From Bryoerythrophyllum caledonicum (taxonomy: Eukaryota; Streptophyta; Bryopsida; Pottiales; Pottiaceae): 64,000 nt of DNA. This document shows, piece after piece, positions 21,567-63,717 of this stretch. The first letter of the stretch is position 1; each line of letters begins with the position of its first letter. The position numbers were made by a program, and so were the translations under genes. Location of the stretch: NCBI GenBank assembly GCA_963971425.1, contig OZ020517.1, positions 21,834,462 through 21,898,461 of the forward strand, written 5' to 3'. The notes under the pieces were generated by a model. The model was not told the DNA's origin. It saw only the letters and a program-made list of their open reading frames with translations, and searched no databases.

Positions 21567-22690
21567 CTACCCTACATCAATTTCCTCAATACTCCCACTT
21601 TGCGTAGAGCCAAAGCCTCTAAGTCCAAATGTTATTACTAATCGTTGGTGTAGGTCTCTACAAAGACCCTTTGTGAGCACATCAGCCACCATGTGCTCCG
21701 TTGGACAATAATCCAACTGTATAACTCCCAACTCCAACTTCTCCCAAATGAAGTGGTATTGCACATCAATGTGCTTCGTGCGTGAATGATGTGTAGGGTT
21801 CTTTGCAAGTGAAATGCACCCTTGGTTGTCATACATGATCGTTGTAGCCTCACCTTGTGTGCAACCCACATCCGCCACTAGTTGCCTCAACCAAATGGCC
21901 TCCTTCGTGCCGTGGCTCGTAGCCATGTACTCGGCCTCCACCGTTGATGTCGCCGTGGTTTGTTGCCGCTTGCTATTCCACGATATTGCTCCCGATCCGA
22001 CTTTGAACATGTAGCTCGTTGTTGATCTTCGATTGCTTGAGTCTCCCGCGCAGTCCGCATCGCAATAGCCGCTCAACACAATGTCTTTGCCGCCAAGACA
22101 CAACTTGACATTGCTTGTGCCCTTCAAGTACCGCATGATCCTCTTGACTGCCATCTAATGCATTGAGCCTGGTCTCGCCATGTGTTGACTCACCACGCTA
22201 ATTGGATACGCAAGGTCGGGCCGTGTCACAATCATCGCATACATGAACGACCCCACCGCTTGCTTGTATGGCACCTCCGCCATCGATTTGGCCTCTACCG
22301 CATACTCCTCCTCTGAAAGCTTGATGAGCTTGGAGTTTGCATTCAATGGTGTTGCCACGGGCTTACAATCCTCTATCCCAAATCTCTTGAGCACGTCCAT
22401 CACATACTTGCCTTGACTCATGGTGATAGTGCATGTAGCCCTATCTCTCACAAACTCAGCACCAAGACAAAATGCAACTCTCCAAGATCACTCATCTCGT
22501 ACTCTCTCTCAAGCACGGCTTTTAGTGCCTTCATTGAACTTATGAGGCTTGCAATAATGATCAAATCATCAACATATATGATCACAATCACCACATGTTG
22601 ACCCTCTTGCATGAAGTAGAGACTATGATCTGCAATGCTTCTAGTAAACCCGTGTGCAAGGAGAAACGTGTCAATCTTTTGGTACTATGC
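21567..22690 (-). pseudogene. Copia C-terminal reverse transcriptase and RNase H
   Basis: The RT active site YVDDLIII lies near 22580. Frame 22451-22155 carries LKRFGIEDCKPVATPL and TRPDLAYPISVVSQ. After a TAG in place of Trp, frame 22154-21567 carries RIMRYLKGTSN, the RNase H motifs CDADCAGD, STVEAEYMA and YDNQGCISL, and ends KGLCRDLHQRL. The catalytic acidic residues are present, but the reading frame is interrupted at least twice in this part. Confidence 0.85.
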
Positions 22691-22834
22691 TCTTGGAGAT
22701 TGTTTCAATCCATACAATGATTTTTTCAACTTACAAACAAGGTGCTCATTACCTTGTTGCACAAAGCCCTCGGGTTGCACCATGTAGATGTCCTCCTCCA
22801 AATCGCCATTCAAAAATGCGGTCTTCACATCCAT

Positions 22835-24409
22835 TTAATGGATCTCCAAGTTCATGGCTGCCCCAATCGCAAGAATGCAGCGAATGGTGGTGAACTTGGC
22901 CACGGGAGCAAACCTCTTGTGAAAGTCCACCCCATGAACTTGTACAAACCTCTTGGCTACTAGTCTTGCCTTGTGACGCACCACATTACCCGAAACATCC
23001 CTCTTTGCACGAAACACCCATTTGCAACCAATGGGGTTGCGATCCTTTGGAATGGGAGTTAATTGCCACGTACCATTAGCAATTAGAGAGTCGTACTCCT
23101 CTTGCAAGGCGCGCTCCCACTTGACCGCATCCTCACATTGCATGGCTTCACGAATGGTCAATGGACCATCTGATAACGCCACATTCGCATGCTCATCATT
23201 CTCTTGAGGGAAGATGTGATTCTTCCACCATTCTCCAGGTGGCTTGGGCGATCTCTTGGGGTACCGCCGATCGCTTGAAGGAGCTTGCTCCTCTTGCGCA
23301 TCATTTGTGCCATTCTTGGTCTTTGAGCTCGATGGCACTTCAACAACCTCCGTGTCGCCATCTTCGTCGTCACTGTCATCATCACCTACATCAACAACAC
23401 TAGGGGACTTGGAGGGTGTGTCCATCAACTTGTCAGCACAACTCCTACTTGGACCAACCTCCACAGGAGCCTCCATCGTAGACTCCTCACAAAACGTCAC
23501 ATCAAGTGATCGAATGATCTTCTTTGTCTCCACCGACATGAGTCTATACGCCTTGGTACCTTCACAATACCCAAGAAATACACACTTTGAAGCCTTAGCC
23601 TCGAGTTTAGTCCTCCGTTCATCCGGAACCTTTGCGTATGCAATGCATCCAAAGATGCGCATGTATGCAACACATGGTTGCCTCCCACTCCACGCTTGCT
23701 CCGGGGTCATGTCTTCAACCGCGCTTGTTGGACATCGATTTCGACTGTATGCCACATTCACCACTGCTTCCGTCCAAAGGTCCAACTTCAAGTTTTGAGC
23801 GTGCAACATGCTCCTCGCCATCTCTACAATGGTGCGATTTGCACGCTCCGCAACTCCACTTTGTTGAGGTGTATACGGGGCTGAAGTTTGCTGTGCGATG
23901 CCTTCTTTCTTCAATAGCTCGTCAAACTTCTTGGACATGTACTCGCTGCCATTGTCCGACCGAAACACTTTGATCTTCATCTCGGATTGGTTCTCCACCA
24001 ATGTCTTGAACTCCTTGAACTTGTCAAAGCACTCACTCTTGGCCTTGATTGGATAGAGCCAAATCTTCCTTGAAAAGTCATCGATGAAGGTCACAAAGTA
24101 CTTGCAACCTCCCATCGACGTGGTCTTCATTGGGCCACATACATCCAAATGCACGATCTCCAAAGGCTTGGTTGCCCGTGTCGCCGCTTCACCCGCAAAT
24201 GGCAATCGTTGTTGCTTGCCTTCAATGCAACCTTCATAAGTGAATGAAGAAGGATCCACTTTCAATTGATGAATATCCATCCCGCTTACCATGCCGCATA
24301 GTGTCTTCACACTCTTGATGTTCAAATGGCCGAGTCGACGATGCCACAATGCCAACTTGTCGTCCTTCAAGTTTGAATGCGCTAATGCCGCTTTTTCGCT
24401 CATATGCAC
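22835..24409 (-). pseudogene. Copia integrase and N-terminal reverse transcriptase
   Basis: 524 codons. Zinc-binding N-terminus (HRRLGHLN, then CIEGKQ; the usual first Cys of C-x2-C is altered to Tyr). Integrase core has the three acidic residues (HLDVCGPM, RSDNGSEY, then SGVAERANRT). A C-terminal acidic linker (DDDSDDEDGD) and RYPKRSPKPP precede the RT start (EYDSLIANGTWQL, CKWVFRAKRD, RHKARLVAK). It ends at a TAA where the family has Gln, just before MDVKTAF. Length and order match plant copia elements. Confidence 0.9.
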
Positions 24410-24446
24410 CTTCGAGAACTTTTTTTTTTACAAGCCCTCATCTTCT

Positions 24447-24875
24447 TCAATGATGGCCAACCTCATCTCGACTCGGTGACAACACATAAGACCCCTTATC
24501 ACTAAACTCAACCTGCAAGTGCTTTGCCACTAATTGCCTCACCGACAGTAAATTTGCCTTTAGTTTGGGAACATGGAGGACATCTTTGATAGTGATTGTC
24601 TTCACACGACCCTTCACCTTGGTGTCTACGACAATTTGGCCTTTGCCAAGGGCCTCAAGCACCGTATCATCTCCCAAAATCACTCTCTTTGGTTTAATGA
24701 CACAATACGAATGGAAACAAGTTTTATTTGGTGACATGTGGCTTGTAGCCCCCGAATCAACAATCCAATCACTCACACTACCGTTGCACGATACGTGACT
24801 AGCCATGTTTGCATACTCATCACCATCCACAATCCAATCACTCATGCTTGCATCACCCTCGATGCCATCACTCAT
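24447..24875 (-). pseudogene. Copia protease domain
   Basis: Contains the aspartic protease motif WIVDSGATSHM and downstream ILGDDTVLEALGKGQI, VLHVPKLKANLLSV, typical of copia protease and its C-terminal side. The stretch before it repeats SDWIVDG/SDWIVDS, a small internal duplication of the protease start. The frame ends at 24447, and the integrase frame starts after the T-run frameshift. Confidence 0.85.
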
Positions 24876-25599
24876 GCTTGCATCAAATCTAGCCGTAAAT
24901 GCGTACTCATCTCCATCATCACCAACTTTGGTGTTGTTTGCACTCTCCTTCTCATTGTTTTTACGTTTGAAGCAAAATTTGGCAATGAATAAATGTATAG
25001 AAAATAGGTGGAAAATCCAAAATTATTACCGTAATTAGAAATTAATATACATTCTTCTTCTTCTTCTTCAATGCTTTCCTCCATTTAAAATATATTTTTT
25101 GTATAGCTTCATCCACATGTTTTTTTACAATATCAACTATATTACAATGACATTAGTAATTTTCCTATGTGAATTTTTGGTCTTTTATCCTATTCTTGAG
25201 AATGATCAATCCTCACTATTCTCAACTATAACAAATTTATTTCTATTTACTTCCAACTATTTGTATGAATTTTTATAGATCTAGACTATTTATTTTAATG
25301 TCAGTTCATTTGTAAATTACAATAGTAGTGCATGGCTATTTGTAACATGTCTTTTACAAAATAGTTTACCTAATAACACTTGCCTTGTAACTTGAAAATA
25401 CTATTCGTAGCCAAAGATTATTTATGCAAAATAAAAAGTACACCAATTTGTAAGAGAATTTTGCTTGAAGGGAGTATTTATGTTGATCTATACAAGTTAT
25501 ACCATACTCCTCATCCGGTAGTCTTTATGTGCATATTCAACATACTGCAATTTGCAATGTGGATGTATAATTCATCCCACGTAAGGATACATCATATCA

Positions 25600-31067: not shown

Positions 31068-34000
31068 ATGGCGAGTAACAATGGTGCGGGCGGGAGGGGA
31101 GGGGCGCACCAGCTGAGCAACGGGCTGTATGTTTCGGCGCAGCCGGACCGGCAGAAGGACAAGGCGTGCATGATGAGCGTTCCGCAGATGCCTTACACGG
31201 GCGGGGACGTCAAGAAGAGCGGCGAGCTTGGCAAGATGCTTAACATTCCCGTTACGGACGCCGGGGGTGCGAAGCGGAAGTCGGGGAGCCTCGCCACCCC
31301 GGTCGCGCGCGCCACCTCCGGCCCGCTCAAGTCTGCGTCCGGCCCGCTCACCTCGTCCGGCGCCCCCTGGATCCCGGGCAAATCCGCAGGCACGATCTCC
31401 GTCGGCACCACCGCTGCAGTTTCGGGGGCTGCTGCTGCTGCTGCTGCATCTTCCACCGTTTCGACGCGCAGCGGGGAGCTTCGGAGGGCGACTTCTGGTC
31501 CGCTGCAGGCGAGTAATTCTCTCAAAACGTCGGGGCCGCAGCCTACGTCGCTGCCTACGACGGGGTTGATTACTTCGGGTCCTATCACGGCTTCCGGTCC
31601 TCTTTCTGCGCCGCCGCGGAAGGCCGTTTCCGGGCCGATTGGCGACAGCGGGCGGCCGACTGGCGCCGCGCTTGCTATCAACTGCGTGAGCGGCGGCCAG
31701 AGCTACTCGTTTTTGCGCAACTTTCCGCGGATGATTCTGTACACTTTGATCCCGCTGTTTGTGATCGGGTTCATCGCGGGCGCGTTTATTTTTGCCGCGG
31801 TCAAGAATGCGGTGTTGTTGTTCGTTGTCGCGGCGCTTTTCGGGTTGGTTCTCGTGGTTATGGTGTGGAATACTGTGTATGGGAGGCGGGCTGTGTTCGG
31901 GTTTTTGGCGAAGCATCCGTTGTCGGATCTGAATGCGGCCAAGGACGGGCAGTTGGTCAAGGTCACCGGGGTGAGTTTCTCCCGAGCATGTAGAGACTTT
32001 TTTTGTCGTGAGATTTCGAGTTTTGAGGATCGGAAATTGTGTGCATTTCTTTGTTCTTGAAGAGGAACTCATTTCCTTCTCTGGTGAGTTTTTTCCTCGC
32101 TTCTATAGGGAAAAAGTCAGGAGAGGTTATTAGGGAGCTTTCGAGGTTTGTGGATTGGGAGATGGTGAAATGTGTGCATTTTTCTTTGCTCTGGAGGAGA
32201 AATCTGTTTTCTTCTCTGGAGAAGTGATGCATGCAAGTAATGCATGCTGAGTGTCGCGTGTGGACATCGATGATGCATTGTTGTAACTTGCAGATCAGGA
32301 GATGAAGATCGCAATATGCATTACTTTGTTGATCTTTGAATTATGGAAGAGTTATGGACACATTCAGTTCGTGGGCCTGCAGCATGATTCATAGAGGCGT
32401 TGGTGTATTTTTATTTTTATTTTTATTTTTATTTTTAGAGTTGAATTGAGTTTTTTTTGGTGTACTGGATGATTGTTGCATTGCAGGAACACACCTCCAT
32501 CTCTGCTTATGTGGAATGCAGTGATCTTATATCATACTAGATTGCAGATGAGTTTAAGATCACAACATGCATCATTTTGTTATTCGTAAAGTGTTTGCAA
32601 AAGTTATGGACACACTAGATTTGTTTGTAAAGTCACCCAAAGTTTCAACAAGGTACTGGTCTATCGATTTATAATACTACTATTTGTTTACCCTTAATGG
32701 CTATTATATGTAAAAGAGCTTGGTGGTCTTTTAATTCTAGTCCGAACTAGGTTTGGCCGCCTTTGAGAAAGAAGGAGAGGTCATGTTTCTCTTCGAGCTG
32801 ATATATCATAGAAATTATTGGGCTGATTTTAATATCTAAAAAAGACGTCATATCTCACAGTATCTTTGCCTCACTTGACGAATAAGCCTACTTTCGTAAC
32901 GATTTATGGGCCTACGTGACATATATGGAGGCGATCATTTTTCAATGTTCTTAGAGTTGGTGGGTGCATTGCAGGAATAGACCTGCAATTGTGTATACTC
33001 CTTTGGTATATTGGAGTGAAAAGAAATGTTCACAGATATGTGATGTGAATGGATGTGGCAGGTTGTAACATGTGGGAGTGTGCCTCTGGAATCTTCATAT
33101 CAAAGAGTATCACGTTGTGTGTACACATCTACGGGTCTCTACGAATATCGAAACTACGCTTCCAAGAAAGCCCGGGAGAATCATCGCCGTTATACTTGGG
33201 GATTGCGACATACAGAGGTATGGTATTTGCATGTCATGTGTTACTGGTTTGAGAATAATGATGTTTCGTTGCCCTGTATGTAGTTTTTCCTAAATTTCTA
33301 GAGTTATTTGTCAAGGTTTTTCCAAGGTAACCCCTCTATCCACCATAGTTATTAGATGAAGAGTAGAGCTTGGTGGTCTCATCCTTCAATTCAGCCAATC
33401 ACTGGAAGAGCTTGGTGGTCTCATCCTTCAATTCAGCCAATCACTGGAAGAGCTTGGTGGTCTCTAAACACAAGTCGAATAATTTTAGCACTCTTTGAGA
33501 GTGAATAAAAGTCTAAGTTTCATGAATATTAGCCGCCGTTCTCTCCATTGGGCTGATTTTAGATTACTTAAATACATTTTAGATGAGAACTGTTTAAACC
33601 TGATCTAATTATTTAAAATGGAAAAAGAGGGGATATCTTATTGAAACTTCGGGTGACTTTACAAAGAACTCTATTGTCTCATCTGTGCTACCTAGACTAA
33701 AAAATTTCTGACATTCTTGTGTTCTAGAATCTGACGTTTCGAATACAGAAGCATGTTGTTGATTCTTACATAACCTAGACTGAAATTTTCCTGAGTACTA
33801 AGACCTAATGTTTTGGTTGCAGAGATATGTGGTTGATTTCTACATTTCCGACTTTCAGACAGGCCTGAGAGCCTTGGTGAAAGCCGGCTACGGAGCTCGA
33901 GTGACACCTCACGTTACCGAAAGTACAATAGTGGATCTCCTTCCAACCCAGAAGGACATTCCAACGGACTTCTTGCGATGGTTAACAGAACGAAACCTAT

Positions 34001-50194: not shown

Positions 50195-50686
50195 CTATGT
50201 GGGGTTGGTTGTTTTTGAGTTTACGTTTGTGTAGAAGTATGGACATCGCATGTTGGATAGCGATGGTATTAATTTCAGTGAAAGTCTTTTTAATTGGATT
50301 AATGGAGATGTTAAATGTTTTTTGAGACTTTTCATAGAGGGGATAAAGGTAGTAGCTCTAGCTCCAGTGGTAATGACAATAAGAGGGTCGACTTTCCATC
50401 CAAGAGCTCTAATGTCATTAATAAGTGGTTGATATTTATTAATTTTGTTTTCGATTGTTTCTGGAGAAAATTTGTGATTACAATATTTGAATTCAATGAA
50501 TTGGATAGTAAGATTTGTATGAATGTGTTCCGATGGGGGGTCTTTATATGGCAATCCTTTAACGCATAGTATATATGGTTTGAATCTGGCATTACAATGA
50601 CATCTTTGGTTTCCACATGTGCATGGAAGTAGCCATGGAGGGACCGTGTTTTCTTGTGGGTTGTTGTTGAAGATTCCGGCGTTCAT
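50195..50686 (-). pseudogene. LINE C-terminal nuclease-like domain
   Basis: 163 codons that continue the LINE ORF2. They contain a Cys/His cluster (LPCTCGNQRCHC), then RFKPYIL and, about 30 residues on, QFIEFKYC, followed by ETIENKINKYQPLINDIRALGW and DPLIVITTGARATT. The pattern (K)P-D/Y ... E-x-K resembles the PD-(D/E)XK fold of restriction-like endonucleases, with the first Asp replaced by Tyr in this copy. The C-terminal end is frameshifted. Assignment to the restriction-like endonuclease is an inference from motif order. Confidence 0.55.
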
Positions 50687-50737
50687 AAGTATGAAGCATT
50701 GCGATTTATTAGAGGATATGATTAGTTTTCGAATTTC

Positions 50738-52420
50738 CTACACTGCTTTATTGTGCATTTTGACAATTAGGGAGTGTATGTGATGGTTTTGGCATTTGAA
50801 GAGTACGTGTAGCCATGTGTCTGGGTCTGTGGTGGTGAATATTAGGCATGTTATGGATGAAAATCTTTCTATTCCAGAGAAGAGTTGTTTGCGGGCACTT
50901 CCCATAGATTGTCCAGTACGGAATTTGACGAGGCATGTTTTTTGTGAGTCTGTAATTGTGGGATTTTTCCAAAAATTTGCAGAGAGTTCATTATCAATGT
51001 TGTTGTTACCAATCCATTTCTCTATGTTTGGAAAATTTTCCGAGATTAAGTCTAGGTTGTTGGTTAGCTCTTGTTTTTTAAGATATTTATCTAGAAATCT
51101 GATGGGGCCTTTGTCCGAGGTGTCTTCCAGAGAGGACCAACTTTCTCTTTGGAAGTAGTATGGAGTAGCGTGGGCATGTTTGTGTAGGTGTTTGGCATCT
51201 CTATGGGATTTACCTAATCCTTCGTTAGCTAGTTTATCCGCTTGTTCGTTTCCTTCTATATTGACATGTGCTCTAACTTTGTGGAGGGTTGAAATTTGAG
51301 TACGATGTTGTAGCATTTGGACCATAGATGTTAGTATGGCTTGGTCTGGGTGGCTATTGTGGAGGGTAGGGTGTGTTATTTGTGTGTTTAGTAGATACAA
51401 GACGTTTATGCAATCTGTAAAGATGTGTGCGGGTTCATTAGCGTATTGTATGGAGATAAGTTTTAGGGCTTTGTGGAGGGCCATCATCTCTGCTCTAAGG
51501 ATATTTTGGAGTCCATGGAGTCTTTTGGTTATTTTTATTTTTTTGGTGAAGTTATATATACCATATCCTGCTTTTTCTTTATGCCATTGCCCGGGGCTAG
51601 CTTCTACAGGTTCTTTGAAGGAACCATCTGTGTAGTAACTATATGCACATTCAAATTTTAGGGGGTTGATATCATTATATGTAGGGAGGGGAGGTGGAGT
51701 AGTGAGGTGGATTGGTGTTGTGTGTACATATTTAAGTTGGGACCATTTTTTGTTGCGATTTACTGGGGTATGGGAAGGTGTGGGTGGGGCTATTTTTGTG
51801 TATAATTGGTGTATGTTGAGTTTATTTGTTATATTAGTAAATGTAGCAAGTTTTTCCATGCTACCGACATTTTTATCTTGGTGGTATATGCATAATATTT
51901 GTATGGTGGATGGCTCGAGTCTAGGTTTGCTTTTTAGTTCGGGTGGAATAGTTGGTTCTTCACATGGCACCGAATTTGCTTCAAATAGCGCAATGATGTG
52001 GGAATCTAGGAATGGTCCTAAGTGGGGGTTAAGGTTTTGGTACCAATTATTATTCGGAGTTATAATGAGGGCGGAAGTATTTATTGGATCATTTTTGGCC
52101 GCTAGTCTTGCCCAATGTATTGCTTGTTGTATATCTTCTATATTGTGGGGGTGCACAATACCATTTCCAATCCATTTGTGGTCAAAGGCATTTTCTAGTG
52201 AGCCAAAAAATTTATCTCTTTCAAATGGTGAATGGAACGTAGTGAGTTGTATGGAACATGTGATAGGGGATGAGAAGTACAAGTGTTGGATGTTGAAGGA
52301 TGAGATTAGTGACTTTAGAATGGGCATGGGTAGTGTGTATTGTCTGTATTTGAGGGGGTCATTTTTTGGGATGCGATATTTATATCTTTGGTATAGCCAA
52401 ACTATTTCGATTTCGAACAA
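50738..52420 (-). pseudogene. LINE RNase H and C-terminal zinc-finger region
   Basis: 560-codon frame. RNase H occupies about residues 260-390: YYTDGSFKEP (Asp), LRAEMMALHKAL (Glu), IFTDCINVLYLL (Asp), then HTLHKVRAHVNIEGNEQADKLANEG with the final His and Asp, so all catalytic positions are kept. The C-terminus holds TCLIFTTTDPDTWLHVLFKC followed by KMHNKAV, which looks like the C-x2-C...H-x4-C finger with a following R-x-HN-type motif of restriction-like endonucleases of R2-type elements; the first Cys pair is partly altered. It ends at a TAG after NKAV where the frame clearly continues (EIRKLI). Confidence 0.8.
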
Positions 52421-53380
52421 TTGGATTGTTGGTTCTATGTTTGTGGGGGTTTATAGTTTATTATGATATTGGTTCCATAGCCATTGGAGTCTAGTGACAG
52501 GGATAGTAATTAAATGTCTTCCATTGTCTTCATATATATGTGCATGATCATCGTTAAAACTGATGGTATTTTTTGATGTGAGAATATCTTTTTCGGGATT
52601 GCATTCGGTTGTGTGGATGTTGAGGAGGGGAATGATTATGGGTGGGGTAACAGATCTTGAGTCACAAAGTTGCTCTTGAAGGTGGTGTGTTTGTATGATT
52701 TTTAAGTAGAATTTGTTTTGTGTGTTTTGGTATTATTGTGTTAATTTTGAGGAGTTATGTGTGGAGGTGTTATGATCATGCCATGGGAAGAGGTTCCTTT
52801 GGGGTAACCACTTGTTGTATGTATTGTTGTTGTGTTGCCATTGACATAGATATTTGGTATCATTTTATTTTATTTTGTTGGAGTCAATGTGTTTTCTGTG
52901 TTTATGGTCGATAATAAGATTTATGGGATATGTGGACGGTTTTTTAGGAGTGTGTAGAGGGGGGAGGGCGGGATGGATGTGGCAGGTTGAGGGGGGGTGA
53001 ATTGGTGGGGTGTTGTTTCTGAGATGGGTATTATTGTTGGGGGTAACATATGCGTCTTTTAGGATGTAGAGATTTGGATGTACAAGGCATGGTGAGGCGC
53101 AAGTATTGGAGCATGGGGGTATCAAAATAGTTATTGGGCAATATTAAGAGCGCTTTTTATTAGTTTGGATGGTGTAGTATGAAATGTCTTGAAGTCATTG
53201 TGGTTCAAAATGTGTTCCATTTGGTAATGTAATTTGTTTTAAGTTGGTAATATTTTCTGTCAAAAGTTTTTGTAAGAGTTTTTGGGAGAGGTGTTGGTTA
53301 ATTCTTGTGTCATTTTGGGTTTCTTGTAGCCATATTTGTTCCAAAGGTGAGGGTTCTAATGAGAAGTCCGTGATTGTGCT

Positions 53381-54894
53381 TTAGGGGTTAATTTTTGCTT
53401 CATTTTTTAGTAGAAAAAATGTCTGTGTGATTGGTGATCTAATGCAATCCGCTTTGTTTATTCTAGGTATGTTTTTAGCACCACCATATTTGGCAAGGAT
53501 AGAGTGGGTGAGCCCTTTGTAAATCTTTCCAAATCTTCCTTTGTCGTTGAGTGCATTTTGAAGTTGTTCTCCAATACATGGAAGGTAAGCATTTTTAAGG
53601 GAAAAAGCTTCTAATCCAAATAAATTTTTTGGGAGTTGGGTTATGATATTTGACATGCATTTAGGAAGACCACAAATGGATTTTTGTATGGCTATGATTT
53701 TTTTGTCTAGTTTTTTGATAGCAGGCATAGAATATAGAACTGCATAGAAACTGTATGGTAGTCTGGGTCTAAGTACTGTGTCTACCAAAAAAAATTTGGT
53801 TTCATAGTGGTTGGGCATGTTATTAGTTCTTTGAATTGTTTGGTAAGTTTAGTAGTAGTGGTGTGAATTTGTATCTTCCATTTTAGTGAGGGGACAAGAT
53901 TTGTGCCTAGATACACATAAGATTCATTTTGATGTAGTATGGGTATGGGTTAGTTGCGGTAGTTTATGTTGGCGGTTTGCATGAGTGCTTTGAATGCAGT
54001 TGGGTTCAGTTTGGATTTGTTCGGACAACCCATGGTGGCACATTTTTGGGTGCCAACGTCCATCCCGGACCAATTGCAAAATTTGTCTATTTTATTTAGT
54101 TGGATTTGTAATGATTTAAATTTGCCGGCAATAGTAGCGAGGTCATCTGCGTACGCGGCCGAGTTTCTGGTAACTTGTGATGTTCCAAAGGTGTACTTGT
54201 TATTTTCCCTTTGCATCCATCTTAGTAGTGGTTCTAAGAAAATGATGAATAGATATGGGCTTAGGGTGTCACCTTGTACGGTTCCTCGTTGGATGGGGAC
54301 GGTGTAGGTTGTTCCGAAATGTTCTCCAACATATGAGGTGGAGGAGTTAGAATATATGTTTCCAACTAGTGCGACTGCATCCATGGGGTATCCGAGGTCG
54401 GACATAATTGCTAATAATCTTGCGGGGTCGATAGATCCAAATGCATTTTTGAAATCAATATATAATATATATATATCTTGGTTTGTCAATCGTGCATCTT
54501 CAAGTGCGGCTATTATGGTTTGTAGTTGTCTAGCGGTACTTCTTTCCACATGAAAGCCTTCTTGGTTGTCGTGTAGGATTTGATGTTTTTTTCCATACGA
54601 GGATAATATGGATGTGAATGTACTTGTAAAGAGTTTATTGATAGTGTTGGCTAAGGCAATTGGTCTATGGTTGGGAAGCATTGAGAGGTCACCTTTTTAA
54701 TAAAGTAATATTGTAGAACTAGTTTTCCATGATGAGGGGATTTGTTTTTTTTTTTGGTAGCAGTGAGAGAAGAATTGCAAGAGAAGTTCGTGGAATTTCG
54801 GGGGCATTAGTTTTAATATGGAGGTTGGAATTCGGTCTGATTTGGGGGCTTTATTGTTTCCTAAATTTTTAGGCATGTATCGTTTGTGGCACAA
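53381..54894 (-). pseudogene. LINE reverse transcriptase
   Basis: 54894-54697 starts with NLGNNKAPKSDRIPTSILK. 54681-53950 carries LPNHRPIALANTINKL, QEGFHVERSTARQLQ, YIDFKNAFGSIDP, IQRGTVQGDTLSPYLF and the active site AYADDLATIAG (about 54145-54160), then MGCPNKSK. 53818-53381 continues into the thumb (LRPRLPYSFYA, GLPKCMSNI). This is a non-LTR-type RT with the expected order. A TAA and a shift separate the parts. Confidence 0.9.
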
Positions 54895-56899
54895 TTGAAG
54901 TAGCTGTGTAGTTGGATTTGTGGTTCACCACGTTTATCTATAGTGAAGCCATCAAGGTCATACCATGGGTATTGTCTTACTGCACATGTATATGTATATG
55001 GGTGGTATGATAAATAGTTGCATGTAGGTACGGTGGGTCTATTGTTTTTTGTTTGTTGGTTATAAATTTCATTGGCAATATCTTTGGAGCTCGTTAAGAT
55101 GTTATACTGATTAGTGATACAATCCAGTGGTGGGGATTCATTGTTTTTGAAGACTCTTCTATAGTTTTTCTTTGGACTAGTTTCAAATAATTGTCTGTAT
55201 TTAGAGATGGCTTTTTTGATATTTTCTTTGGTATATTTGGTAGTTATTTTTTTGGCTTGTCTGTTTGCCTCTTTTGTGATTAATGCAATATCATGTAACC
55301 ATTCATCTGGTGATGTGTGGGGGGGGGGTGGTGGTGGCGAGATTTGGGTATGTTGGAGGGATTATACTTCTCGGCAAATAAGGTGGGTAAACCATTGTGG
55401 GTAAACCATTGTGGGTTATTTTTTACATTTCTAATTGTTTTCCTAATGGTATGGTAGGTATTTAAGTGTTGTTTCCATTTTCTTGAGAGTTTTCGTGGTA
55501 AGTAGCCTCCTTGTTTGGATGTTCTGATTATTAGTTGAGGTATAGGTGGGGCTTTATATGTTTTCTCTAAGGTGTTAGAGATGTTATTTATTATAGTATC
55601 TAGGGAGTTGCAGGTTTCCAGCCATTGATTTTGAGAGGGTTGGTTGTTGTTTTTTAGATAGTTAATAAGGAAGTCAATTTGTGTAGAGTTTTCTTCAAAA
55701 AATATTGTGTTGAAATCTTGTGCATTGGTTATTGGGATGGGATTAAGTATTTGAACACTATCGTTGTTTGGTGTTACGGGTGCTCTACTAATAAATGTGT
55801 TTTGTGGATTGAATTCTCAAGTCACATGGACACTGGGGTTTTCATTTTTTTTTGTTGGAAGGAGAAATGAGGAACGAGTGAGCTCCAAAATTGTTGGTGA
55901 GGGGAGGAGGACTTAGGCTCAGATCTAACACCCACGAGCAGTAAGATATGGCTGGACTTGCTGAAGAGCCCTCGTTTGCTGTAGATCTGAGACCAGAGGA
56001 GATTTTCGGAAGCAGACTATGTGTTGGGAAGTGCTCTAGATCTAGATCCAATCAGCTCGTGGGGAAACGTGGTAGTGCACTAGATCTATGCGTTGAGAGA
56101 TCTGAAAGCGAGCATACTGCTATGGTGATGCATAGGACTGAAAGCGAGCGTGTGTTGGCGTATAGCAGAGATGGAGCAACATTGTGTTGGTGCATAGTCT
56201 GAGAGCACTAGACACGTAGTATAGCGAGATCTGACTTAGATCTAGACCATGGAAACAAGATCTGCAATCTCTCGCTATGCCCTCCTATCCCCGATCCAGC
56301 CCCCAAGCCATCCAACATTGCGAAGACGATCAGCACAAGCTCGTACCACAGCAACAGCCATCCTCCAAGCTCAGATACGTTCTACACTCTACACTATGCT
56401 TGCTTATTGTCTATTTTGTTGAACATCTACCCCCTCCCTCACACTTGCAACACGCACAGTAGTATCACATCACATAGATTGCAACAGGATGACCTAGACG
56501 TTAGAAAATAGTCAAAAAAATCATGTGTTAGAGCCCATAGGCCAATCACTCACCTTTCACACACTACCCTCTCTCATCACAAAAACACCACACATAGTAT
56601 TACTCCATCACACACACATAGAAAAGGTCAATCATCACTCACTTCTCAAGCACAGATACGTTGCTCTGCGGCTAGCAAACTAACCTCGAAAAGCAACATC
56701 CTAGCAAAAATAGGAAACAAGCTTCAGTCAGCTTCACCAAACCAACAAGAAGGGCCTCAGCAAAGAGCAACAATTTGCAATCTAAGAAGAAACCTTCAGC
56801 TAACTTCATCAACCCAACAAGACGAGCTCCAACAGAGAGGAGCGATCTGTAACAACAAACAAGACGAAAATCAGAACAAGGCACAACACAGGCGAGACA

Positions 56900-59046: not shown

Positions 59047-60677
59047 ATGACATGTAACACCAGAAAAAGCTCCAACATCCACATGGAGGTGGAGACCATA
59101 GAGGACAACTCCACAACAACGCCAACCACGAAAACACCAAGAAAGATGGACAAGGAAGGTGGTAGCAGCAAAAAAACAAGGTCTCCCCAAGACAAGAAGA
59201 TAAGACAATTTGCAATCCAGAAATATGCTCCTTCAAATTTTGGATGGGCTTCCAAGCAATGGAGGCAATTGCAATAGAAGAGGGCGTTGAACCTCTATTT
59301 AGTGGTGAAACGGTTGAAGACATGATCACTAGAGGACTAAAACCGGAGGAGGCCAAGGAGGTTAGCATTGCAAGGGTAGTTTTTCCCCGTATCCCACAAT
59401 TGTTATATCCTATGTCAAGGAAAGGGGTGGTTGGACAACACTACAACCTTACCCAAATTCCTTTCGACATTCCCACAAACGAGAACTCAGGTATGTCACT
59501 TGACTTTCATGTTGGAATTCACTTTGAAATCCCCAAACACCCTATTATGCATGATGAGGTAAAGGAGATGGTCATTACAAGGCTAAAAAAGATGAACATT
59601 TCTCTTGGCGAACAACTAATTGACCCTATAGCTATCCAATGCTTAAGCATCAAACAAGGAAAGATTAAGGGGGTGTGGGCGGGAAGCATTAAACTACACT
59701 TGCTCAAACCCGAAGTAGATGGGTTAATGTTACTAAAAGGCATCAGACCCTTTATTCTCAAGATTGGGGAAGAATTAATTGTTGGTAAAGTTTGCAAGGC
59801 TTACCAAAGCATTTCTAAGGGTTCTAACCTCTCCGTGAAGGTTAAAAGTGATGTATTGAAGGACATTACAGCTCAAGCACTCTTCAAGGAAGTACTTGAA
59901 GATAGCTTCCATCGTGGATTCGAATTTGAGCTAACGGGAGTGCAAAAGAAATATGAAGACTCCCATGCCTTTCTTATTACTACTACTCCCAAGCAAGTGA
60001 AGAAAATCCTCCTTCATCAAGCGACCGCCCAACATGAAGTATTGGAAACAAGGCAAGCGCTTGAGGTCAATGGACCAAAAGGTAAACTCGAAACTAAAGC
60101 TAAAAAAGATGCATTAACATTAACCTTATCTCCCCTCCCCATTCACTTGGATGTAATGCACACCACCCAAGAAATCTACAAGGTCATGGGTGGTGCAAAT
60201 GTCCGCTCCGTATGGTTCCATAAAGATAACGGTACTAACCACAATGGCAATGGCAATGTTTTATGTGCTAACCCTATTGTATATAGGACATTTGTGGGGA
60301 AAACTCAAATTATTGGAGGTAACTATGTGGATTTTGCACCTCATCGACGTAGCTTAGAAGGGGACTCCCCTCCCACCATGGAAGAAATCAAATCCTTTGG
60401 ATTTGATGATATCAACACCGCCATTGTCAACACTATGACCACTTTCCAAATGCAAGAAAAGACCAACAACGTGACCAAGGAGGAACTAGTGGTACTATTG
60501 GAAGAAAACAACAAGAAAATCCGGAAGGAGAACAAAGAGTACGCCGACATGAAGAGCGAGGAATTGAAGAAACAAATGGCAAGTGTACAAGACTCTATGA
60601 AGACCGCCTTTGCCACACTACAAATCATGGCAAGCACTATGACCACTCCAATGCTTGAAGATGGGCGGCCAAACTAG
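59047..60677 (+). CDS. LINE ORF1-like protein, one apparent frameshift
   Basis: The N-terminal frame, 59047-59274, starts MTCNTRKSSN and is basic and Ser/Thr-rich (KKTRSPQDKKIRQFAIQKY). The main frame, 59244-60677 (477 codons), begins GFQAMEAIAIEEGVEPLFSG. The two overlap near 59250, where one base change joins them into about 540 residues. The central region is globular with VVGQHYNLTQIPFDIP, DFHVGIHFEIPKHP, AIQCLSIKQGKIKGVWAG, PFILKIGEELIVGKVC and VMHTTQEIYKVMGG. The C-terminus is a charged coiled coil (LVVLLEENNKKIRKENKEY to ELKKQM). No CCHC knuckle or RRM is visible. The long intact frame and position before ORF2 suggest ORF1 of the LINE, but I do not recognise the fold. It may alternatively begin at 59244 or be a separate gene. 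Confidence 0.55.
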
Positions 60678-60679
60678 AT

Positions 60680-61686
60680 AGTTACAAAGACTACAAACTA
60701 CTACATAGACATAGTATAGCAATACATAGTATAGTGCACATAGTATTTAAACAACATACCAAACACATAGCAAAAAGAAAAAATACCAATACAAATACAA
60801 TATCCGCATATTGTATTAGACATTATACTCAATACAAAAACTATATACAAAATTCCAAACCAAAAATACATACGTATATAAGATACAAATATTATACTCA
60901 ATACTATGCCCAATACTATACACTAAACACAAGCTCTAGTAAAAAAGTAGACATGAGCGGGAATACAAACACAAACCTAAATACACATACAAACAAAACT
61001 CAAATAAACACATACCTCCGCATACATACACACACATACATAAATATACATACAACCACAAACATACACACAACCACAAAAACAACTATCTGCACAACCA
61101 TAGATATACACAAACACACAAATACTATACTCACAAATAACCACACCTCTTACCACCCAACCCCCTCTAGGACCCCTTATAAAAATAAAAATAAAAATAA
61201 AAAAAGCTACACAACTAAAAGCATATACACAAATACACCCCAAAATACAAACAACATCTACTCAAAACTATAAAAAAATACACTCACCTTCACACATATA
61301 CTAAAAACTATTCTCACATCCACAAACATAAATCCAAACAAATACACCACCACACAAGCAACACAAACTATACCGTACACAAATAGCTACTACAACGACA
61401 TAAAAATAATTACTCTCACCACAAGAAATCACACCTCCCACATAAACATATACAAAATCACACACATTGCTACAAACATAAACACTTTTCAAACCACACC
61501 CAAATCCACATATACAATCACCCACACCAAAACAAATAAATACATACATAATAACACATACTTACACACAAAAACATACATAAAGAACGCACATACAAGC
61601 ACATATAAAATAACAGTCACGCACAAATATATAAACAAAAGCATAACTACACCTTTCTATACTAAAAAACAAAATAAAACCTTTAT
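60680..61686 (+). other. A/C-rich spacer between ORF1 and ORF2
   Basis: About 1 kb very poor in G and T, built of ACACATACA, AACACAA and ATACAAA words. All forward frames read as Asn/Thr/His/Ile/Lys-rich low complexity. The 179-codon frame at 60734-61273 is of this kind and probably not a protein on its own, though it could be a decayed upstream part of the ORF2 leader. Confidence 0.6.
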
Positions 61687-63717
61687 TTGTCAATACACCC
61701 AAGAAACTCCAAACACCTTACAAGCCCAAGCACATGTAACAATAGAAAACACATACTATCCAACACAAATATCTACACCCATCCAAATAGAAACATATTC
61801 ACAGGCAGAAATACAAAAAAACCTACAGACACATACACACACAATAACACATACATCAACACAAATACAAACACCCTTAAAAACATAATAATAATAGCTA
61901 ACAAACAACAACACATCAACACAATAAAAATTGTATATAGCAACAACAAGAAGAACCCCAACACAATACATACAACAAAACGCATCACTAATCAAAATAC
62001 TTATAAAATCAAAAATAAAATAAATACTCGAACCTCAATACACCAACACACTAATAAAAAAGAAATAAAAAAACACCTAAAATATAAACATAAACCACAA
62101 ACACCAAACTATCACACTAAACCCAAACACTATAAAATTCTAATACTACTAAGTGGAGACATAGAAACCAACCCCGGACCCATGCCAAATATACTAAAAA
62201 GACATCCCAAAACACATAAGAAAAATGCCAAAATATACTTCAACCCCATTACCATAAAATTACAACCAGAATATGGACAAATAGCAAAATCTTTTGCACC
62301 TTTCCTAAAAAACACACATACATCACACCACATACATAACAATACACACCCAAACTTTGCCCAATACATACAACAAAAAAATACGCATCCACCACCTCAT
62401 ATCCTATATGCCCTAGTAGTCACTACTCACCCACACTTAGATGAATGTAACCACCTCCTAAATCCACTAAATCATACCACAATCACATGGACCAACACAC
62501 TTCTACAAACCTTACTAAACGTACAAAATCCACCAGAACGACTCATTCACATTCCACATCCATACTTAAAACTCCTTGAAAACAACCAAAATATTATAAA
62601 CCATGAGAACTCAAGACATAAAAAACTATATGACTTCATACATAGTCAAACCACACCCCCGTCAAACAAAACAATAAAACTAAAATTTCCTTACCTCCCT
62701 AACAACCTCATAAACGAATCACTAAAATGTCTAGACCCTATACCAGAATACACCTACCCTCCCCCACCTCTTCTCTACATCCCTCTACAAAATCAAAACA
62801 TAAGATCAAACCAAGAAAATACATACATAATCACATGGAATGCCTCCTCACTAAACATTGCCCTCCCCAGCTTACAAACTTTGGTCACACACATAGACAC
62901 ACCACCCGCCCTCATAGTTATACAAGAAACAAAATTAACTGCCAAAAAATCTACAAAATACATACAAAACATATTTCAAAACTATAAACTCATCTTTAAC
63001 AATACACATGCACTTACAAGATGCATTCAACAACAAAGACCATATACACCGGGCCGCGGTGACCTACTTACACTAATACACAAAAAATATGCCTTCCCGG
63101 GCAACATCAACAAAATCCCTACCCCAATGCACATATCACCATACATCCAAATAATCAAAATCACTAATCACCCACTTCAACCGTGGTTAATCTTTCACAT
63201 GTATATGCCATCCCATCCCGAAGATACTAGATTTATCTTAGACATACAAAACACTATCACATCCCAAGTCAACAATAATCCCAATCATACATACCTATTA
63301 TGTGGAGACTTCAATAGAGACATAGCGCTAATTGGCCGCCAAAATGGAAATCGTAACACCCCCCCTCAAAGCATCGATTACCAATGGCGTCGCTTCACAG
63401 AAAGCTTAAACTTTACCTACATCAATACTGATACACAATTCTCTAGACAAGGTGGCTATAATTATAGTGATTGGAGTCTAATAGACGGATTCTATATAAA
63501 TACAAACAACAATACACAATGCACCTCCACAACAGACAAAGATATTATTCTCAATTCAAACCATTCACCAGTACAACTACACATTCCAAATAACACATTA
63601 ATTAGTAGAACTCCTATAATCCTAAATAATGACACTATACGCATACTCAACCCCATTCCCAAAAACAGCATAGAAAATTCAACACAAAACTCTTCAAAGA
63701 AAACTCCGTACAAATAG
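61687..63717 (+). CDS. LINE ORF2 N-terminal part: low-complexity leader, 2A motif, APE endonuclease
   Basis: 676 codons. Residues 1-150 are Asn/Thr/His/Lys-rich low complexity. Residues about 151-165 are ILILLSGDIETNPGP, a 2A ribosome-skipping motif (D-x-E-x-NPG/P) with the usual hydrophobic and SGD context. The skip would fall between codons 62176-62178 (Gly) and 62179-62181 (Pro). Residues about 166-375 are an unfamiliar Pro/His-rich segment with HILYALVVTTHPHLDECNHL. The APE endonuclease runs about 379-650: ITWNASSLN (Asn), VIQETKL (Glu), LLCGDFNRDIA (Asp/Asn), YSDWSLIDGFYI and SNHSP (His; usual SDH is SNH). The frame ends at 63717, but the protein continues in another frame from about 63690, so one base has been gained or lost at 63665-63690. 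Start codon uncertain; the leader may begin further upstream. Confidence 0.82.
   Translation: MSIHPRNSKHLTSPSTCNNRKHILSNTNIYTHPNRNIFTGRNTKKPTDTYTHNNTYINTNTNTLKNIIIIANKQQHINTIKIVYSNNKKNPNTIHTTKRITNQNTYKIKNKINTRTSIHQHTNKKEIKKHLKYKHKPQTPNYHTKPKHYKILILLSGDIETNPGPMPNILKRHPKTHKKNAKIYFNPITIKLQPEYGQIAKSFAPFLKNTHTSHHIHNNTHPNFAQYIQQKNTHPPPHILYALVVTTHPHLDECNHLLNPLNHTTITWTNTLLQTLLNVQNPPERLIHIPHPYLKLLENNQNIINHENSRHKKLYDFIHSQTTPPSNKTIKLKFPYLPNNLINESLKCLDPIPEYTYPPPPLLYIPLQNQNIRSNQENTYIITWNASSLNIALPSLQTLVTHIDTPPALIVIQETKLTAKKSTKYIQNIFQNYKLIFNNTHALTRCIQQQRPYTPGRGDLLTLIHKKYAFPGNINKIPTPMHISPYIQIIKITNHPLQPWLIFHMYMPSHPEDTRFILDIQNTITSQVNNNPNHTYLLCGDFNRDIALIGRQNGNRNTPPQSIDYQWRRFTESLNFTYINTDTQFSRQGGYNYSDWSLIDGFYINTNNNTQCTSTTDKDIILNSNHSPVQLHIPNNTLISRTPIILNNDTIRILNPIPKNSIENSTQNSSKKTPYK
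62134..62181 (+). other. 2A ribosome-skipping motif
   Basis: Encodes ILILLSGDIETNPGP within ORF2. All consensus positions (D, E, N, P, G, P) are present, and the run of Leu/Ile before SGD resembles functional 2A motifs. Translation would release an N-terminal product of about 164 residues and restart at Pro 165 ahead of the endonuclease. Confidence 0.85.

Follow-up and report, generated by a model that had tools for sequence, protein, structure and literature searches.

A high-copy LINE of a moss-like plant appears to carry a functional-type 2A (StopGo) sequence, at which ribosome skipping would separate a leader peptide from an ORF2 protein (ORF2p) of uniform N-terminus. We assign this reading a probability of roughly 0.8. 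Its support lies at the level of sequence and comprises the motif, its frame, selection on its amino acids, an open leader, in-frame AUGs in a young family of copies and the recurrence of the motif in relatives. StopGo is the best reading because the core and the hexapeptide of the analysed copy match a class whose activity has been measured, because the peptide is selected, and because the leader ahead of it is kept open. Below, "the window" denotes the whole stretch of DNA that was analysed, which is 64,000 nucleotides long.

Translation of the window yields KILILLSG-DIETNPGP at 62134–62181 on the forward strand. The upstream part of the peptide (62134–62157) consists of a lysine and an L-rich run with an SG end, and the octapeptide DIETNPGP (62158–62181), wherein the break is expected between G and P, satisfies the 2A core (D/G/C/N)(V/I)ExNPGP. 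When compared by eye with the classes described in PMC12846837, the window hexapeptide LILLSG fits the L-rich class ending in (A/S/C)G. That source assigns this ending to motifs 2 and 6, both of them L-rich, and states that skipping by the LLLLSG-like, or motif 6, class was measured in reticulocyte lysate (PMC12846837). The 2A segment reads KILILLSGDIETNPGPMPN. An ATG (62182–62184, reading into MPN) lies immediately 3′ of NPGP and has C at both −3 and +4. The frame that holds the 2A and the endonuclease match is free of stops from 61678 to 63714. The original prediction, that a complete DIETNPGP preceded by SG and a hydrophobic run stands in frame ahead of an apurinic-type endonuclease (APE) domain, agrees with this translation and with a PF03372 match in the same frame (62830–63363, forward strand, residues 385–562 of the frame; E 3e-4, under Pfam's own cut-off). 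That leader, 2A and APE share one frame was likewise borne out by reading the window and other copies. Because homology shifts to another frame near 63,690 (the break is placed approximately at 63690–63714, the frame closing at 63714), the window copy itself is decayed.

Several features indicate the kind of element to which this 2A belongs. Matches of the endonuclease to exodeoxyribonuclease III in PDB are weak (E 0.006). A second, 5′-truncated copy of the same family on the reverse strand (50198–55816) carries a reverse transcriptase (RT, PF00078), a PCIF1-like domain (PF12237), an RNase H (PF00075, E 5.5e-13) and a C-terminal zinc/PD-E region, and copies with an intact ORF2 extend over 2348–2354 codons from 2A to stop. 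Residues 1–700 of ORF2 returned no homologs at E 1e-3. The RT region returned 147 relatives, and the named organisms among the 120 listed are green algae and one nematode; the nearest solved RT structures are R2 RTs. The C-terminus matches 42 of the 120 listed relatives, and 25 aligned sequences show, with exceptions, the pattern C-x2-C..H..C, [KR]PD, E, while the lysine of PD-(D/E)xK was not seen in the C-terminus of this LINE family. According to the portions of the sources available, the Dualen/RandI plan combines APE, an RLE-like region and RNase H (PMC4640811), and a table in PMC3747384 assigns RandI to green algae. Because the moss element has an APE, an RNase H and a putative RLE-like end, in keeping with this plan, it is likely a Dualen/RandI-type LINE. 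In an RT tree built from the listed relatives, it groups with unnamed ones (support 92). It differs from Dualen/RandI elements by its 2A, its long leader, its PCIF1-like domain and its land-plant host, and the part of PMC4640811 at hand makes no mention of a 2A.

The PCIF1_WW match (PF12237) falls between RT and RNase H in ORF2 (window 52450–50741, reverse strand), and this domain is marked in 37 of the 120 listed relatives. We take it to be kin of the m6Am cap methyltransferase. PCIF1 has NPPF, and the aligned copies read HPHN at that place. In the ORF2 of copy L023, TKYLCQWQHNDNTYNKWLPQRDLFPRHD precedes the PCIF1-like domain and is chromodomain-like by eye, with KYLCQWQ..WLPQRDL being the part that we assume to resemble a chromodomain.

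With regard to the host, an ORF elsewhere in the window (31068–32057) is 62% identical to a protein from Ceratodon purpureus and 55–56% identical to Physcomitrium proteins, and mosses come ahead of other named organisms among the 120 listed of its 911 matches. Because this neighbouring ORF is closest to moss proteins, the host is probably moss-like, which fits the streptophyte host that had been proposed for the LINE. The window also contains a Copia-type LTR retrotransposon on the reverse strand (21570–25022), with rve and RVT_2 matches at 22838–24427 and neighbouring frames assigned by eye.

The ORF2 N-terminal domain ahead of the endonuclease (62182–62808, forward strand, 209 aa), for which no Pfam family was found, provided a probe that is independent of the 2A. 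It gave 4042 candidates in the genome, of which 150 were scored. A motif-blind set (n = 20) was formed from ranks 2 to 23 of the scored list, leaving out C1:4171035 and C1:9331136, which were already in the motif-search list and both have an intact 2A. Note that these 20 are the copies most like that of the window and that their matches all begin at the Met after 2A. The original prediction had turned on whether other copies of the family retain the motif and its frame. In this genome, the outcome favours the prediction: the 2A region is in frame with the downstream domain in all 20 motif-blind copies and is intact in 14, while the octapeptide of the other six deviates at one or two residues (NPCL, DIK twice, DTE, NPRP, NLGP). 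The same question was put to a motif-independent anchor, MPN[IV]xKxxHP in degenerate codons, which has 995 + 972 genome matches versus 0 + 0 for its control: an intact 2A stands directly before 70 of the 100 anchors listed on C1 (0–23 Mb). Among the remaining 30 anchors of that region, 13 sit 480–1300 bases upstream of an anchor on the same strand, and we read these as older duplicates within a leader. Conversely, 16 of the 86 2A places listed on C1 (0–23 Mb) are without an MPN anchor.

Substitutions among the copies are distributed in a manner expected of a selected peptide. Pooled over the motif-blind set, pN/pS is 0.075 in the octapeptide (pS 0.594), compared with 0.745 and 0.739 over the 25 codons that precede the 2A and 0.225 and 0.176 after it, making the octapeptide the most constrained stretch by this measure. 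For 41 copies (the motif-blind 20 plus 21 chosen by motif), the values are 0.90 and 0.62 before, 0.045 in the octapeptide (bootstrap 0.02–0.07), and 0.29 and 0.36 after. The copies are mutually related, and such counts therefore do not represent independent events. Within the core, the x position is the freest (T in 38, K in 2 and I in 1 of 41 copies; T, K, Q, A and I among 100 listed genome places). Codons −8 to −1 mainly retain hydrophobic character, with G at −1 in 40 of 41 copies and G (31), S (5), C (4) or E (1) at −2. The hexapeptides of other copies are L-rich but have a GG end in 31 of 41, whereas the class as given in the available part of PMC12846837 ends in (A/S/C)G. Given that constraint peaks in the octapeptide, and that the leader drifts in sequence but is kept open in the frame of the 2A, translation of the 2A and selection on it are very probable.

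The leader in the window (61678–62157, forward strand) is of low complexity and in frame with the 2A, as had been predicted, but its length is 160 codons from stop to stop rather than about 164 residues, and the ORF start listed at 61687 is a TTG, not an ATG. This leader has no in-frame ATG and no stops in the 2A frame, versus 10 and 16 stops in the other two frames. The motif-blind set, which is an unbiased test of the leader, has 14, 92 and 83 stops by frame (2A frame first) in the 72 codons before 2A. In the 2A frame these codons are open in 13 of 20 copies, versus a single copy for either of the other frames; an in-frame stop thus occurs in the remaining seven. We considered and rejected A/C-rich composition as the sole cause of this openness, since stops concentrate in the other frames both in the window and in the motif-blind set. 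Eleven copies (L012, L023, L025 and L054–L061) were read further upstream; they were chosen for long open frames, which favours open leaders, and they fall into about five families rather than being independent cases. In 10 of the 11, the leader is stop-free over 300 codons, with 13–29 stops in the other frames, and 300 shuffles of each stop-free leader never reached zero stops. The exception is L059, which has 8 stops in frame versus 20 and 6; its ORF2 is intact, and its short leader is without an ATG. Upstream stops, octapeptide changes and the ATG-less leader of L059 may reflect decay. Because pN/pS is 0.74–0.90 in codons −25 to −13 and stops are biased by frame, the leader frame appears to be kept open while the sequence drifts, nearly unconstrained. 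CAA/AAC microsatellites occur in the leaders of L062–L065, L010, L011, L015 and L026, where they encode Q, N or T depending on the copy, and none of the three frames of these repeats contains a stop. Translation in plants can be enhanced by leaders rich in CAA.

The strongest competitor to the StopGo reading holds that no skipping occurs and that the segment, though translated and conserved, simply belongs to a fused ORF2 protein, where it might act as a targeting or signal-like N-terminal motif. The hydrophobic run before the core would suit such a role, and 2A-like N-terminal sequences are described as acting also as signal sequences when not recoded (PMC4981915, in the part available). Furthermore, because GG rather than (A/S/C)G precedes the core in most copies, we weighted this alternative up and the StopGo reading down. 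Nevertheless, the fixed positions are those of the StopGo core, the freest being its x, whereas the preceding run keeps no more than its hydrophobic character. In a fused protein, the leader would also have to be compatible with ORF2p, yet its length in the copies read ranges from 75 codons (L059; 134 otherwise) to more than 1000. We therefore consider a fused product improbable.

A second alternative is that ORF2 starts at the ATG after NPGP, leaving both 2A and leader untranslated. This would agree with the Met that follows NPGP in 41 of 41 aligned copies, bearing in mind that each of the motif-blind 20 derives from a match beginning at this residue. A further point against the StopGo reading is that in-frame ATGs are absent from the leader of the window and, among L062–L065, from those of L063 and L064 when read from the last stop to 2A. 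An ORF2 start at the ATG after NPGP does not agree with amino-acid selection acting on the eight codons that precede it, with a leader that is open in the 2A frame only, or with the C at −3 of this ATG. Further evidence against such a start comes from the 33 of 150 scored copies whose open frame spans 3087 codons and which constitute a young family. Two young copies, the only two compared as DNA, share 2616 nt upstream with 1 mismatch before diverging sharply, and because of this sharp divergence we place the 5′ end of the family at that point, 2597 bases before 2A. From there, the first six ATGs open ORFs of 1–50 codons. The following ATG has G at −3, lies in the 2A frame 263 codons ahead and opens the first long ORF, after which come five more ATGs, four of them in frame. 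Altogether, 12 ATGs precede the 2A-adjacent ATG of the young family, seven of them in frame and five of these in the long ORF, and the ATG after NPGP again has C at −3. A start at that ATG, with no translation upstream, is accordingly very improbable.

The young-family leader also holds a dead older 2A, GGDINTRP, and a related family has DMETNPRP, likewise dead, about 510 bases ahead of its live 2A. One subfamily (L012, L021, L023, L024, L056, L060 and L061) retains, some 510 bases ahead of the live 2A, a dead older 2A together with about 24 codons of the domain that comes after it, as though a newer 2A-ORF2 had become attached 3′ of an old 5′ region.

A further possibility is that the 2A separates ORF1p from ORF2p within one long ORF. 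In the window, ORF1 (59244–60677, forward strand, 477 aa) occupies a separate frame, out of frame with the 2A, and has its own stop. By tblastn, it is found upstream of 2A on the same strand within 2.5 kb in 12 of 20 other copies. Its structure model (mean pLDDT 46) matches RRM proteins (nucleolin, SFPQ/NONO), which is only a hint that its product could be an RNA-binding protein with RRM-like folds and a long C-terminal helix. In copy L026, a single frame does run through ORF1, a poly-Q tract and on to the 2A, but this is the sole such case among the copies read, and the ORF1 piece of L026 is without the C-terminal part. In L062–L065, ORF1 is closed by its own stop(s), and more stops follow before the leader, in which runs of (N)n, (T)n or (HN)n abound. 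In addition, ORF1 has no match in the 6.4 kb that precede the 2A of a young-family copy (L025/L031), in which case the young family would need an outside source of ORF1p or be able to do without it. After L062–L065 had been read, the single ORF1-2A-ORF2 frame was rejected, and we regard it as scarcely credible; because ORF1 ends with its own stop in these four copies, the 2A would cut the leader from ORF2. A set of 48 of 48 in-phase ORF1-2A pairs was put aside, as these are probably in phase by construction of the frame scoring. Likewise, the open frames of 4313 and 4218 aa that the search reported at C15:12683500 and C15:11859005 conflict with the stops between ORF1 and leader and were not used.

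Across the whole genome (437 Mb in 894 contigs), the eight-codon pattern D[VI]ExNPGP has 1717 matches (880 + 837), whereas its reversed control has 2 (2 + 0), and the copy number of the LINE family is well over a thousand. The window alone could not have decided the question of chance, because the short pattern AAYCCNGGNCC is expected 0.55 times within it. Although the short NPGP pattern is present in 43 of 100 window shuffles, a chance motif in low-complexity sequence was rejected as having a negligible probability given the 1717 matches versus 2 and the mostly synonymous nature of the changes within the motif.

On the StopGo reading, ribosomes would initiate at an in-frame AUG within the fast-changing leader, and the leader would be translated and then released at NPG/P. 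Translation would carry on past this point without re-initiation to produce ORF2p, comprising endonuclease, RT, PCIF1-like domain, RNase H and restriction-like end. The N-terminus of ORF2p would uniformly be Pro-Met-Pro-Asn, and the presumed gain is that this N-terminus becomes independent of the place at which translation starts.

The motif recurs in relatives of the element. Among the 120 listed of the 147 found, 10 have [DG][VI]ExNPGP after a hydrophobic run (P0003, P0026, P0034, P0049, P0050, P0058, P0061, P0081, P0087 and P0092), and the 2A lies ahead of the RT, as in the moss element. Five of the ten are from Haematococcus lacustris and one is from Nannochloris, the rest being unnamed. 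Five were scanned (P0003, P0026, P0034, P0061 and P0092), all of which have RT and RNase H matches and four an APE match. An OTU or Josephin match follows the 2A in four of these five, whereas none was found in the moss frame. Two other relatives (P0084 and P0090) have a non-canonical LLNPGP after an L-run instead of DxExNPGP. The remaining 110 listed relatives are without the canonical motif, and many of the 2A-less ones may be incomplete at the N-terminus. The RT tree has 97 rows, made up of those 95 of the first 100 relatives that had enough RT sequence and two of our own sequences; the 2A-bearing P0081 dropped out. Its 11 rows with a 2A need 9 changes, of which at least 8 are forced, and an equally low number is reached in 31 of 500 label shuffles. 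The tree as it stands does not show a single gain of the 2A, so that one has to assume loss, repeated gain or N-termini that are missing.

In other non-LTR elements, Heras (2006) and Odon (2013) reportedly described 2A sequences in L1Tc and in animals, and the latter is said to be the main paper on LINE 2As. In L1Tc and the animal elements, the 2A is positioned near the N-terminus. 2A sequences are described for non-LTR elements from trypanosomes (L1Tc in Trypanosoma cruzi) and sea urchin (PMC4981915, PMC5972666), and Odon 2013 is credited with 2A in 'a range of other species' (PMC4981915). The moss element resembles these in being a non-LTR element whose 2A is in frame with the encoded proteins, but differs in its plant host, in an RT akin to green-algal elements and R2-type RTs, in its RLE-like C-terminus and in its PCIF1-like domain. 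With the viral LLLLSG-like class of 2A/StopGo sequences it shares the D(V/I)ExNPGP core, an L-rich hexapeptide before D and an in-frame position with coding sequence on both sides (PMC12846837). Unlike these, it is a plant retrotransposon with a nearly unconstrained upstream leader and has GG before D in most copies. The same part of PMC12846837 reports no evidence for natural 2A use by plant viruses and states that StopGo works in plants when introduced. The literature found, available in part, names no 2A in a plant or algal LINE and no natural use of StopGo in plants, which is not proof of absence.

A broader reading, which we hold tentatively and at somewhat less than even odds, is that the 2A is ancient and common to Dualen-type LINEs of the green lineage, chlorophytes through mosses, and serves to normalise the N-terminus of ORF2p. 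Translation might then start anywhere in frame in a microsatellite-like (CAA)n leader, whose three frames all remain readable and give Q, N or T, and StopGo would discard whatever leader was made, such that ORF2p is always the same. If true, this normaliser role would be the first natural use of StopGo in land plants. The 1717 core matches, varied at silent sites, together with the algal 2A relatives, provide a natural series of candidate plant 2As, and the origin of LINE 2As, whether one old gain or many, becomes testable. For the LINE itself, the arrangement suggests a route by which ORF2p may be made without a fixed start site.
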